A stretch of DNA of 39,843 bases from Oscillospiraceae bacterium (GTDB taxonomy: Bacteria > Bacillota > Clostridia > Oscillospirales > CAG-272): positions 1-39,843 of the forward strand of contig SVRH01000004.1 in the NCBI GenBank assembly GCA_015064925.1. The letters run 5' to 3'. Position 1 is the first letter of the stretch. Every line of letters starts with the position of its first letter. The notes beneath the pieces are model-generated. The model was not told the origin of the DNA, made no database searches, and worked only from the letters and a program-made list of their open reading frames with translations. A program made the translations under genes and the position numbers. Below are positions 8,593-13,756 of the stretch, piece after piece.

Positions 8593-9154
8593 AAAGCGGC
8601 TTGTCGTCAAGCCCTCGGCGGTGGCGGTGTGGCTCTGCTTTGCGCTCTTTGAGCCCTCTGTGTACACGGCGCTTCTTTTTGGGGTGATGGCGCTGCACGA
8701 ATGCGGACATCTACTGGCGCTTCGGCTGTGCGGTGTGCGGGAAACGCAGATGGTCATTTCCGGATTCGGTGCGGAGATCCGCTATCATACGGCGGTGAAA
8801 AGCGTTTGGGGCAGGATCTTCATCGCACTGGGAGGGATCCTCATGAATCTGCTGCTTGGGACAGTGATGCTTTATTGGTACAGATTGCCGCTTTGCCTGT
8901 TTACGTCGGTTGCCTCTTTTGTACTGGCGTTTTTGAATCTGCTGCCCGTGCGGGGGCTTGACGGAGCAAGAGCGCTTGAGGAATGCTTGATATACTTTGC
9001 CGATTACGGAACGGCCTATGCGGTGATGCGATGGTCATCGGTCATGGGACTGCTGCTGCTCGGACTGCTTTCGGCTTTCGTTTTGATGGAAAGCGGCTTC
9101 AATTTTTCGCTTCTTCTTTTTACTTTGTATCTTTCTTTGTCGATTTTTCGCTGA
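8585..9154 (+). CDS. M50/site-2-protease family membrane metallopeptidase (SpoIVFB-like)
   Basis: HECGH zinc motif in a TM segment and NLLPVRGLDG second motif. Confidence 0.82.
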   Translation: MSKKRLVVKPSAVAVWLCFALFEPSVYTALLFGVMALHECGHLLALRLCGVRETQMVISGFGAEIRYHTAVKSVWGRIFIALGGILMNLLLGTVMLYWYRLPLCLFTSVASFVLAFLNLLPVRGLDGARALEECLIYFADYGTAYAVMRWSSVMGLLLLGLLSAFVLMESGFNFSLLLFTLYLSLSIFR

Positions 9155-9191
9155 AAAAACGCAAAAAAGTCAAAAAATATTCACAAATCCC

Positions 9192-9220
9192 TTGACTATT
9201 GCTCCCATACCGGCTATAAT
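9192..9220 (+). promoter_or_regulatory. Sigma-A-type promoter upstream of the structured RNA / pot leader
   Basis: TTGACT (9192-9197), 17-nt spacer, TATAAT (9215-9220). Confidence 0.82.
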
Positions 9221-9226
9221 GGAAAA

Positions 9227-9484
9227 TGCACATTACAAATAGCACGATTTTTGCATCTGTGCCAACGTTCCGCAGGGGAGCAAAGTCCAAGGCGGAATCA
9301 TCATTGTTAAAACTGAATAACATGTACACATCTTGCAGTTCTAATGTGGCAATGCCACTCAGGAATCGTTATCGGATCACGGTCCGATTTTGGAAACAGC
9401 CTGCTGCAGCCGATCTCAAATTCTGATGCGGAGAAATACCGCCGTGGAGATGTCCTCAATAATTTACAGGGGGGACGTTTTTTT
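9227..9484 (+). ncRNA. Highly structured intergenic RNA candidate; architecture compatible with 6S RNA or a long cis-leader
   Basis: Nested pairings by eye: 9265-9271/9472-9478, 9275-9279/9453-9457, 9287-9295/9439-9447, 9299-9303/9424-9428, 9334-9338/9404-9408, 9346-9350/9354-9358, 9360-9363/9400-9403, 9371-9376/9383-9388; T-tract 9478-9484; strong promoter upstream. Start and end are estimates. Confidence 0.5.
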
Positions 9485-9513
9485 CGTGGATCAAGACTCG
9501 GTCTGTAAAAACT

Positions 9514-9596
9514 CTTTGCGGGGGCGACTGTTAGCCGGGTGTGGGGTTTGCGCAGAGCTGTATACGGCTGTACGCGGCCTTTTGCCGCAAAGGGGG
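9514..9596 (+). promoter_or_regulatory. Putative potA leader helix next to and overlapping the Shine-Dalgarno
   Basis: CTTTGCGG (9514-9521) complementary to CCGCAAAG (9585-9592), with SD AAAGGGGG at 9589-9596; inner AGCCG/CGGCT; competing local hairpin GCGGC/GCCGC 9574-9588. Confidence 0.45.
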
Positions 9597-9605
9597 ATGC
9601 AAAAA

Positions 9606-10736
9606 ATGTCTGAACTTAAGAATTTAATTGAACTACGTAACATTTCAATGTCATTTGACGGTGAAACGGTGCTTGACGACCTCAATCTGTCCATCAAGGA
9701 CGGAGAGTTCGTCACCTTTTTGGGTGCTTCCGGATGTGGTAAGACCACCACGCTGCGCATCATTGCGGGCTTCATCGATCCGATACAGGGAGATGTTTTT
9801 TTTGATGGAGAGCGTATCAACGGCGTACCGCCTCACAAGAGAAACGTGAACACCATCTTCCAGCGTTACGCGCTGTTTCCGCATCTGAACGTGTACGAAA
9901 ACGTGGCGTTCGGTCTGCGGGTGGCGAAGGTTCCGAAGGAGGAGCTGCACGAGCGCGTCATGGAGATGATCGCCATGGTGAACTTAAAGGGGCTGGAGCA
10001 CCGCAAGGTGGACAAGCTCTCGGGCGGTCAGCAGCAGAGAGTTGCCATTGCCAGAGCCATCGTCAACCGACCCAAGGTTCTGCTGCTGGACGAGCCTTTG
10101 GCGGCTCTTGACTATAAGCTGCGCAAGGATATGCAGAACGAGCTCAAGCGCATTCAGCGCCAGCTGGGCATTACCTTCATTTTCGTCACCCACGACCAGG
10201 AAGAGGCGCTGTCCATGTCGGATACCGTGGTGGTCATGAACGAGGGCAAGATCCAGCAGATCGGTTCTCCTACCGATATTTACAACGAGCCCATCAACGC
10301 ATTCGTTGCCGACTTTATCGGCGAATCCAATATCATTGCCGGCACCATGGTGCGCGATTACCTTGTGCGCATGGACGGAAGAAACTTCACCTGCCTTGAC
10401 CATGGCTTTGGTGAAAACGAGCCGGTGGACGTGGTCATTCGTCCCGAGGACGTGGACATCGTTCCGCTGGATCGCGGTATGCTGGAGGGGGAGGTCACCT
10501 CGGTGATCTTCAAGGGCGTGCACTACGAAATGATCATCGACGTTTGCGGCTTCAAATGGATGGTGCAGACCACCGACGTGCAGGAGGTGGGCGACAAGGT
10601 GGGCCTTTACATCGAGCCCGATGCCATCCACATCATGAAGAAGTCCAAGTATTCCGATATGTTCGGAGATTACAGCACCTACAGTGACGAGATGGAAGAG
10701 GCACTGGCGGGTGAGGAAGAGGAGGAGCAGGCGTGA
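9606..10736 (+). CDS. potA: Spermidine/putrescine ABC transporter ATP-binding protein
   Basis: Walker [17 protein letters not shown], signature [14 protein letters not shown], Walker B LLLDEP, C-terminal TOBE-like region; followed by two permeases and a binding protein. Start chosen from RBS aaaggggg. Confidence 0.92.
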
Positions 10737-11803
10737 AAACAGCGAAACCCGGATGGGGCAATCGGCTGTTGAACGCTCCGTACATCCTTTGGGCGGCGAT
10801 CTTTATCATCGTGCCCCTTATCATGGTGGCGGTGTATGCCTTCACCGAAACAGCCAACGTCTTTTGTCTGGAGGCCCGGTACAAGGGACAGACCTATTCC
10901 TACGAGATCGAAATGTATTCGGGTAAGATACTGAAGGGAGATCCCGGCAGCTTTACTCTTGATCCCGAAATGGAAGGCAACGTCAATATGGACTATGCCA
11001 AGGACATGGTGGCAAAGTGCTTGGGCGCTGAGCGCTCCGAGGTGACCTTCACCAAGGCGAAGCCCGAGTACAACCGTGTGTCCTCTTTTACCTTTGCCAA
11101 TATAAGGACCGCCTTTTCGGGCAACTACGTCCGCGCCTTCGGGCAGTCGCTGTGGCTGTCGGTGCTGGCGACCTTGATCTCTCTTGTGGTCGCCTACCCC
11201 TTTGCCTATGCGCTCAGCCGCACGAGCATTCGCTCGCAAAAGATCCAGATGCTGCTCATCATGCTGCCCATGTGGATGAATATGCTGATCCGCACCTATG
11301 CGTGGACCGATATTATCGCCAGTGGCGGTATCCTTAATAAAGCGCTCGGCTTCATCGGTCTTGGCCCGTTCAAGATGCTGGAGACCGAGGGAGCGGTGGT
11401 CATGGGTATGGTATACAATTATCTGCCGTATATGATCCTGCCCATCTATACCATCATGTCCAAGATCGAGCCTTCGCTGCTGGAGGCAGCGGAGGACCTT
11501 GGCTGCAACGGCTTTGGAAAGCTGCGCAGGGTCATCATGCCCCTGAGCCTTCCGGGCGTGGTGTCGGGAATCATCATGGTGTTCGTGCCCTCGATCTCGA
11601 CCTTCTATATTTCCTATAAGATGAGTAACGGTAAGATCACGCTGATCGGTGACCTCATCGAAACGCAGATGAAGAACCAGATGACCACGGGCGGACTCAA
11701 CGTCGGCGCGGCGCTGTCGCTGCTGCTGATGGTGATCATTCTGATCTGTACCTTTATTCTCAACCGTGTTGACAAAGACGGGGAAGGGAGCGTGATGGTA
11801 TGA
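10733..11803 (+). CDS. potB: Spermidine/putrescine ABC transporter permease PotB with an inserted PepSY-like extracellular segment
   Basis: MetI-like permease with EAAxxLG motif ([27 protein letters not shown]); 4-bp overlap with potA; extra segment aa 41-118. Confidence 0.88.
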
Positions 11804-12621
11804 AGCACGTAAACCGATTGATCATGGCGCTGGTGTATATCTTTTTGTATGCACCGCTTCTTGTCATGGTGATCTTTTCCTTCAGCGGCGGTAACCACAC
11901 CTCCGTGTTCCAGGTGGTGGAGGGCAGACCCTTCTACTACTGGTATGAGCAGCTGTTCAGAGAGGGCAACCCGCTTCTGCGCTGCCTTTGGAATTCCATT
12001 CAGCTGGGCATCGTTTCGGCGCTGATCGCAACGGTGCTGGGCACGGTGGCTGCGGTGGGCATCTACCGCATGAAGAATCGCAGACTTTCCTCTTCGATGA
12101 TGATGGTCAACAACATTCCCATGATGAACCCCGAAATCGTGACCGGCGTATCCATGATGCTGCTGTTCATGTTCGTGGGCGTCATGCTGGGCGTGTCGGG
12201 TGAAAAGACCAACTTCTGGACCCTCTTGATCGCCCACGTGACCTTCAGCACGCCTTACGTGCTGCTGAACGTGCTGCCTAAGCTGCGTCAGACCGACCCG
12301 CATCTTCTGGAGGCGGCGCAGGATCTGGGATGCACGCCCACCAAGGCGTTCTTCAAGGTGGTCATTCCGCAGATCCGTCCCGGTATCGTGGCAGGATTTT
12401 TGATGGCGTTTACCCTGTCCTTTGACGATTTCGTCATCAGCTACTATACCACAGGCAGCTCCTTCAAGACCCTGCCGGTGTATATCTACAACATGGTCAG
12501 AAAGCCCGTAACGCCCGAGATCTATGCGCTGTACAGCATTATTCTGGCGGGCATTTTGGTGCTGCTGATCGTGTACAATGTCGTTTCCGCCAAGACCCCT
12601 GCGGCGGGAAAGAAGAGGTGA
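11800..12621 (+). CDS. potC: Spermidine/putrescine ABC transporter permease PotC
   Basis: LLEAAQDLGCTPTKAFFKVVIPQIRPGIVAGFLMAFTLSFDDFVISYYTTG signature; overlaps potB. Confidence 0.92.
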   Translation: MKHVNRLIMALVYIFLYAPLLVMVIFSFSGGNHTSVFQVVEGRPFYYWYEQLFREGNPLLRCLWNSIQLGIVSALIATVLGTVAAVGIYRMKNRRLSSSMMMVNNIPMMNPEIVTGVSMMLLFMFVGVMLGVSGEKTNFWTLLIAHVTFSTPYVLLNVLPKLRQTDPHLLEAAQDLGCTPTKAFFKVVIPQIRPGIVAGFLMAFTLSFDDFVISYYTTGSSFKTLPVYIYNMVRKPVTPEIYALYSIILAGILVLLIVYNVVSAKTPAAGKKR

Positions 12622-12625
12622 GCAC

Positions 12626-13756
12626 ATGAAGCGAATCATTTCTTGTGCGTGCGCTCTGCTTCTTGTCGCTGCCTCGGTCCTGTTTGGCGGCTGCGGTGCG
12701 CCCGTGAACACCGACGTGACGGTGGAGAGCACCTATACAAAAGAATTCGCGGGAAAGAGCCTGAACGTTTACAACTGGGCGGAGTATATTTCGGTGGGTG
12801 AGGACGATACCCTCAACGTCAATGCCGCCTTTGAAAAGCTGACCGGTATTCGCGTGAACTACAACACCTACGAAAGCAACGAGGTCTTGTATTCCACATT
12901 GACCGGCGGCACCGTGCAGTGTGAGATCATTATCCCTTCGGATTACATGATCGCACGTCTGTCGGACGAGGGAATGCTGCAGGAGCTGGACTTTTCGCAG
13001 ATCCCCAATTACAAATATATCGATCCCGTATATAGAGATCAGTATTACGATCCCGAAAACAAATACACCGTTCCTTATGCCGTGGGTATGGTCGGTATCA
13101 TCTATAACACCACGATGGTGAAGGATCCGCAAAAGAGCTGGGGGCTGATGTGGGACCCTGCCTACAAGGGACAGGTGCTCAATTTCAATAACAGCCGTGA
13201 CGCCTTTATGACGGCTCAGTGCTATGCGGGCATCGATCTGAATACCAAGGATATCGCGCAGTGGGAAGAGGCTGCCAAGCTGCTGAAAAAGCAGAAAAAA
13301 GAGGTGGATCCCGGCTACGTCATGGACGAGGTCTTCAAGATGATGGAGAGCGGCGAAAAGGCGATCGCTCCCTATTACGCAGGTGACTTTCTGACCATGC
13401 AGGAGGAAAACCCCGATCTGGATTTCTTCTATCCCGAGGAGGGCACCAATATCTTCGTGGACGCCATGTGCGTGCCTGCCACTGTGAAAAAGGACTCGGA
13501 TGAATACAAGATGGCGATGATGTACATCAATTTCATGAACGAGATCGACGTGGCGCTGGCAAACGCGGAGTATCACTATTACGGAAGCCCCCACACGGGC
13601 GTGGTGCAGGACGACCGCTATTCGCTGAAGGGTGACCCCATCCTTTATCCCGAGGACAAGACGTACATTGCCGAAAAATGCACCTATTACGAGAATATGC
13701 CGGTGAAGATCCTGCAGAAATACGAAAAGCTGTGGGAAGACGTGAAGGCATCGTAA
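12626..13756 (+). CDS. potD: Spermidine/putrescine-binding lipoprotein
   Basis: Lipobox LFGGC; LNVYNWAEYISVGE...YNTYESNEVLYSTLTGG...YDIIIPSDYM-like PotD pattern. Confidence 0.92.
   Translation: MKRIISCACALLLVAASVLFGGCGAPVNTDVTVESTYTKEFAGKSLNVYNWAEYISVGEDDTLNVNAAFEKLTGIRVNYNTYESNEVLYSTLTGGTVQCEIIIPSDYMIARLSDEGMLQELDFSQIPNYKYIDPVYRDQYYDPENKYTVPYAVGMVGIIYNTTMVKDPQKSWGLMWDPAYKGQVLNFNNSRDAFMTAQCYAGIDLNTKDIAQWEEAAKLLKKQKKEVDPGYVMDEVFKMMESGEKAIAPYYAGDFLTMQEENPDLDFFYPEEGTNIFVDAMCVPATVKKDSDEYKMAMMYINFMNEIDVALANAEYHYYGSPHTGVVQDDRYSLKGDPILYPEDKTYIAEKCTYYENMPVKILQKYEKLWEDVKAS

Follow-up and report, generated by a model that had tools for sequence, protein, structure and literature searches.

Between the gene for an M50 protease and potA, in the 39,843 nt of Oscillospiraceae DNA analysed here (the window), a near-consensus promoter is followed by a stretch of some 380 nt, and the question raised by this locus is what kind of RNA the stretch encodes. 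The first-pass annotation proposed a 6S-like RNA, folded as a long rod with a central bubble and ending at a T-tract, and offered as a fallback a cis-leader of the polyamine transporter that had gone unrecognised. It is the fallback that homologues lying next to potA and conserved there have borne out. Sequence comparison gives good support to the region as a conserved structured RNA which forms a cis-regulatory 5′ leader of potABCD. That this large structured leader controls translation initiation, senses polyamine and is OFF when polyamine is plentiful is considered moderately probable.

Position, extent and relatives of the potA leader

All features described are on the forward strand. The promoter consists of TTGACT and TATAAT separated by a 17-nt spacer (9192-9220, 11 of 12 matches), as had been noted from the sequence, and predicts a start site near 9227. 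When the 120 nt preceding the conserved GCAUC were scanned with a cut-off of 9 of 12 matches, a promoter-like site was found in all 72 homologous leaders, compared to 16.4 expected from mononucleotide shuffles. In about half of these leaders the end of the −10 box lies 14-18 nt before GCAUC, a position which places the conserved 5′ strand near the 5′ end of the transcript. The leader RNA would thus occupy 9227-9605 (approximately 370-380 nt), from the predicted start site to the base preceding the potA AUG, and it has the same position in relatives.

Conservation extends from just 3′ of the promoter to the potA start codon at 9606 and is strongest at 9509-9605, beyond the T-tract at which the RNA had been thought to end. 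This extent argues for a 5′ leader of potABCD and not for a separate small RNA. The stretch ahead of potA is non-coding, as first described, since the 66-aa open reading frame that overlies it is not conserved in the homologues. The RNA is also structured, with comparative support, but its fold is not the one originally drawn. The description of 9226-9486 as strongly structured is not upheld by folding energy, because its minimum free energy of −69.4 gives z = −0.66 and 49 of 200 shuffles were as good; taken over its whole length (9226-9605), the leader departs modestly from shuffled sequence (z = −2.04, 3 of 100 shuffles).

The regulated gene, potA (9606-10736), passes the NCBIfam cut-offs for potA, TIGR01187 and NF043075, and is followed by the permease genes potB (10733-11803) and potC (11800-12621) and by potD (12620-13756, start approximate), whose polyamine-binding product matches solved spermidine/putrescine-binding proteins. 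The operon is thereby confirmed as a polyamine importer. The potA Shine-Dalgarno sequence, AAGGGGG (9590-9596), lies 9 nt before the AUG at 9606. There are two in-frame AUGs, at 9597 and 9606 (AUGCAAAAAAUG, 9597-9608), the first of them inside a conserved strand discussed below (H1 3′); since it is too near the Shine-Dalgarno sequence, the second is the likely start.

Some 80 homologues, which come from several families within the class, are located immediately upstream of potA. A blastn search of 59 related genomes with 9226-9490 matched six relatives. In five of these the match lies directly upstream of potA (one of the five, L004, has a contig that stops just before potA); the sixth (L007) was rejected as a chance similarity inside a coding gene. 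A covariance model (R1) built on the strongly conserved 3′ domain (9509-9605) gave matches in 60 of the 397 genomes searched from this family; one match (L068) was spurious, so that 59 of 397 have the leader directly upstream of potA. The model also matched genomes in other families of the order. A second model (R2), for which 47 diverse sequences were used, extended the matches to further families within the class and gave none beyond the class among 299 genomes of the phylum. L068 and L082 were discarded as false matches. The open reading frame downstream is potA in every genuine readable homologue; L032 is the one case in which the script did not identify the start codon. Each genome has a single locus, always at potA, and no other gene is associated with the leader. 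Comparison among these loci establishes, at the level of sequence, the conservation, position and promoter of the leader.

These results bear directly on the reading of the locus as 6S RNA, or as a second 6S paralogue, acting as a free RNA that binds RNA polymerase. Its length and promoter would fit, and some bacteria have two 6S RNAs; the resemblance to RF00013 is nonetheless one of length only, since fold and position differ. RF00013 gave no match in the window, even in a permissive scan of 9100-9700, and no Rfam 15 family reached its gathering score anywhere in the window, so that the database comparison suggested with the original proposal lends it nothing. (The permissive scan returned fstAT, SNORD72 and psbT-asRNA as weak matches far below cut-off; 18 homologous loci searched against Rfam 15 matched no family.) The genome's own 6S RNA lies on another contig (G000:C61:2459-2660, L001:1501-1702) and scores 61.5 bits, where the gathering score is 46.4. 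With no RF00013 match here, a clear 6S RNA elsewhere and homologues directly upstream of potA, the 6S identity is unsupported; conservation that enters the potA ribosome-binding site, and a conflict between the rod helix and the fold described below, also oppose it, and it is scarcely credible. Direct adjacency to potA, with conservation into the ribosome-binding site, is instead the mark of a cis-acting leader.

A trans-acting small RNA, processed or terminated near 9484, to which the position as potA leader would be incidental, can point to the T-tract at 9479-9485. No terminator is predicted at this tract, however, the tract is missing in most relatives, and helices P7 and P8 join the sequences on its two sides, which makes this reading improbable. 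Even less probable is an attenuator based on a leader peptide, in which a ribosome stalled on an upstream open reading frame would open the potA site, as with speFL in enterobacteria. Polyamine genes elsewhere are regulated through upstream open reading frames, the window has such a frame at 9226-9426, and an AUG occurs in the conserved AUGUACAC. However, frames that begin at the conserved AUGU(A/U)CA range from 3 to 115 aa in length and lack a consistent Shine-Dalgarno sequence, the motif is present in just 44 of 73 leaders, and indels and stem variation ignore the reading frame.

The pseudoknotted core and the upstream helices

The core of the cis-acting leader is formed by two interleaved helices. 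In P7, AACAG (9395-9399) pairs with CUGUU (9528-9532), and in H2, CUCUUUGCGG (9512-9521) pairs with CCGCAAAGGG (9585-9594), which overlaps the Shine-Dalgarno sequence. Because P7 encloses the 5′ strand of H2 and not its 3′ strand, the two together make a pseudoknot. P7 is a long-range helix which reaches nine pairs in relatives, with changes on both sides at eight of the nine; strand pairs from homologues include AAUCACAG/CUGUGAUU, AAUCAUAG/CUAUGAUU, AACCGCAG/UUGCGGUU and AUAUGCC/GGCAUAU. Inside P7 lies the P8 arm (9405-9507), which is enlarged in the genus of the window and is closed by UGCAG (9405-9409) with CUGUA (9503-9507). H2 has all ten positions paired in 47 of 47 sequences (100% of cells), and three adjacent pairs are compensated in L078 and L083 (GCGG/CCGC to GUCA/UGAC), which probably represents one lineage. 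The P9 hairpin (9550-9575, GCG-CAG-AGCUG-UAUA-CGGCU-GUA-CGC) is contained within H2 and has changes on both sides at six of eight pairs. In one genus (L059, L060, L062, L065, L066 and L067) there is a long insertion between P9 and the 3′ strand of H2, and both H2 strands are kept, which supports H2.

These pairings were evaluated on alignment A5, made from sequence alone with MAFFT (47 sequences). In A5, 93.9% of the cells of the structure are paired and 20 of 32 pairs have changes on both sides; the covariation is 0.258, compared to 0.152 ± 0.007 in shuffles (0 of 500), and is at most 0.058 when the partners are slid by 1-3 columns. Since kinship can inflate such scores, P7 was also compared to a null in which each column evolves along the tree independently of the others. 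It was 91.9% paired against a null mean of 52.5% (maximum 74.8), and had 57 doubly changed cells against a null maximum of 44 (0 of 400 in each case). For H2 the tree null is unreliable, since an ambiguous state at the root might be resolved to an unpaired one. When all pairs (approximately 10,000) were compared by a G-test under a rate-preserving tree null, which is noisy for single pairs, none reached E < 0.05; a P7 pair ranked first (E = 0.17), followed by one at the position expected for a P8 pair. A5 carries a bias towards P7, in that 12 of its sequences were cut on the 5′ side according to a visually picked string resembling P7; an untrimmed test was weaker but agreed (20.2 for own strands and 18.0 for crossed strands, 61 of 72). 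Two other products were set aside. When RNAalifold was given just six 3′ domains, its consensus contained an incorrect inner helix, since the partner of the P7 3′ strand lies outside the segment used; and an initial MAFFT alignment of five complete leaders placed the variable middle part wrongly.

Upstream of the core, the P3 hairpin (9267-9298) is formed by GUUCCGC (9267-9273) with GCGGAAU (9292-9298) and has an upper stem GGA/UCC (9277-9279/9286-9288). The stem re-pairs in relatives, with a value of 21.1 for own strands against 13.4 ± 0.44 when the 3′ strands were permuted (0 of 2000, n = 58). This removes the helix that had been drawn between 9287-9295 and 9439-9447, since 9292-9298 pairs within P3 and does so again in relatives. 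In the closest relative (L003) the 9287-9295 strand becomes UCUUUGGGAGG, a change compensated inside P3, and CCGCCGUGG (CCGCCGTGG) is unchanged. With its named helix gone, the rod with a central bubble loses its support. Helices P3, P7, H2, P9 and P8 are those which comparison of the homologous sequences establishes.

The remaining upstream elements are smaller. The P4 stem (9302-9324) pairs CAUUGUU with AACAUG in the window and AACAUC with GAUGUU in most relatives, and further changes among homologues give AACGTC/GACGTT, AACAGC/GCTGTT and AACGCA/GCGTTC. The P5 stem-loop (9338-9366; GUUC...GGAAU) holds an inner GUGGC/GCCAC hairpin, and its pairing gives 11.6 for own strands against 10.2 ± 0.22 for permuted strands (0 of 2000). 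P6 (9371-9388, AUCGGA/UCCGAU) is a predicted hairpin of variable length, based on the sequence and the minimum-free-energy fold, and P2 is an optional small stem. The leader of L064 has approximately 170 extra bases between P5 and P7 which resemble a small inserted element.

A putative helix, H1, would join the two ends of the leader. Its 5′ strand, UUUUUGCAUC (9248-9257), is near the 5′ end of the RNA and near-invariant in homologues. The 3′ strand, GAUGCAAAAA (9596-9605), lies between the Shine-Dalgarno sequence and the start codon, and its GAUGC, with the A-run, is invariant in A5. The strands are perfectly complementary, with a predicted duplex energy of −10.2 kcal/mol; they vary so little that covariation is scarce, and H1 therefore rests on complementarity. 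UCUGUGC (9256-9262) and GCGCAGA (9550-9556), both near-invariant, are also complementary (−10.9 kcal/mol) and are a possible competing or alternative helix.

Proposed control of potA translation

The leader has the features by which a riboswitch is recognised, a conserved structured 5′ leader with an expression platform, the platform here being H2 over the Shine-Dalgarno sequence. Given the position of the leader and its pairing, translational control is the simplest reading. Transcription from the leader's promoter would begin a little upstream of H1. H2 would, in the closed state, mask the Shine-Dalgarno sequence, and H1 would hold the 5′ end of the RNA against the nucleotides that separate the Shine-Dalgarno sequence from the AUG; since this buries the Shine-Dalgarno sequence and leaves no free spacer, a ribosome could not load. 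As P7 is pseudoknotted with H2, the folded upstream domain may either stabilize or oppose the closed state.

The open state that we infer involves the loop of P3. This loop, GCAAAG (9280-9285), repeats part of the 3′ strand of H2 and is complementary to CUUUGC in the 5′ strand (9514-9519), so that it could compete for that strand as a candidate anti-sequestor. GCAAAG is present at the P3 stretch in 58 of 72 homologues; most members of the window's family keep it, as do L141 and L143, which belong to other families, and it is absent in several branches. Because of these absences the competitor step is put forward as a proposal.

The likeliest signal would be spermidine or putrescine, which may bind the pseudoknotted core and favour the OFF state, thus limiting import. 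The suggestion of this ligand comes from gene context alone: a polyamine importer, one copy of the leader per genome and no other gene. The direction of control is suggested by the feedback already known to act on polyamine genes (PMC10853860, PMC10319736), from which an OFF switch is expected, and the leader is on this analogy probably a polyamine-responsive OFF switch. A more specific claim, that it is a new and unusually large pseudoknotted riboswitch class with a dedicated polyamine aptamer unrelated to SAM-I, which shuts import by pinning the mRNA's 5′ end to the bases beside the start codon, is advanced more tentatively.

The same cis-leader could instead sense something other than a polyamine, which might be temperature, an ion, a different metabolite or a protein (PotA, for instance, or a factor associated with the ribosome). 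Structure and position do not specify a ligand, and since the leader occurs only at potA there is no second gene from which the signal could be triangulated. The exclusive association with a polyamine importer nevertheless makes a polyamine the simplest signal, and the strong conservation of unpaired bases points to a specific site of binding more than to a thermometer. A non-polyamine signal is for these reasons rather unlikely, and the polyamine-sensing leader is the reading retained below.

Relation to known systems and distribution among Clostridia

Polyamine riboswitches have long been claimed, and only recently was one demonstrated, a rare variant of SAM-I (Salvail et al. 2023, PMC10853860). 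This spermidine riboswitch resembles the potA leader in being a polyamine-related cis-RNA of Gram-positive bacteria and an OFF switch, as is proposed here. It differs in that it keeps the SAM-I four-stem fold, belongs to biosynthesis genes and acts by transcription termination, while the potA leader is pseudoknotted and acts, as proposed, on the ribosome-binding site of a transporter. No SAM-I family match to Rfam was found in the window or in the 18 homologous loci, and the leader does not have the four stems.

The potE and odc1 motifs (PMC8632094) are also structured RNAs linked to polyamine genes. The potE motif, however, is from Veillonella, has a weakly supported structure and lies approximately 200 nt from potE with no clear expression platform, and odc1 is an element which incorporates an upstream open reading frame and is tied to ornithine decarboxylase; neither has been described upstream of potABCD, and both are set apart from the potA leader by their descriptions. 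The 5′ RNAs of Borrelia potB (PMC10319736) are similar in that spermidine lowers potABCD expression after transcription start, but they have premature 3′ ends within the potB coding sequence and no structured leader before potA. Translational riboswitches which hide the Shine-Dalgarno sequence, some of them pseudoknotted (such as the pnuC motif, PMC8632094), likewise use a paired ribosome-binding site as expression platform; the potA leader is distinguished by its length (approximately 370 nt) and by a 5′ end tied beside the AUG, and shares no sequence family with them. Literature searches at the level of article text found no description of a potA leader of this type. The potA leader is a new RNA class among structured cis-regulatory leaders.

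Its distribution is patchy. A pattern scan of named genomes gave 57 loci, all in uncultured, metagenome-assembled Clostridia (Oscillospiraceae and similar), many of them from the gut of ruminants or other herbivores and one from Candidatus Avispirillum faecium. A potD-like gene is present in 133 of 148 genomes of the family, yet the leader is found in just 13 of 71 genera, and most relatives that have potD are without it. Of ten regions retrieved from relatives without the leader, nine have a gene for a potA-type ATPase with a different upstream sequence. Since the leader is patchy and other sequences stand in its place, regulation of the operon seems to have been rewired repeatedly. Four regions from leaderless relatives (L151, L157, L152 and L150) have terminator-like hairpins followed by T-runs before potA (for example TGCACGGAAAAA...TTTTTCGTGCATTTTTTT), which suggests transcription attenuators at the same operon.

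As an RNA confined to a polyamine importer, with covariation and an expression platform, the leader is a testable candidate for a second independent class of polyamine riboswitch, and its comparative fold specifies the exact mutations with which to test it. If the proposal is true, it would explain how polyamine uptake is tuned in some gut Clostridia, which would be of interest for the relation between host and microbe.
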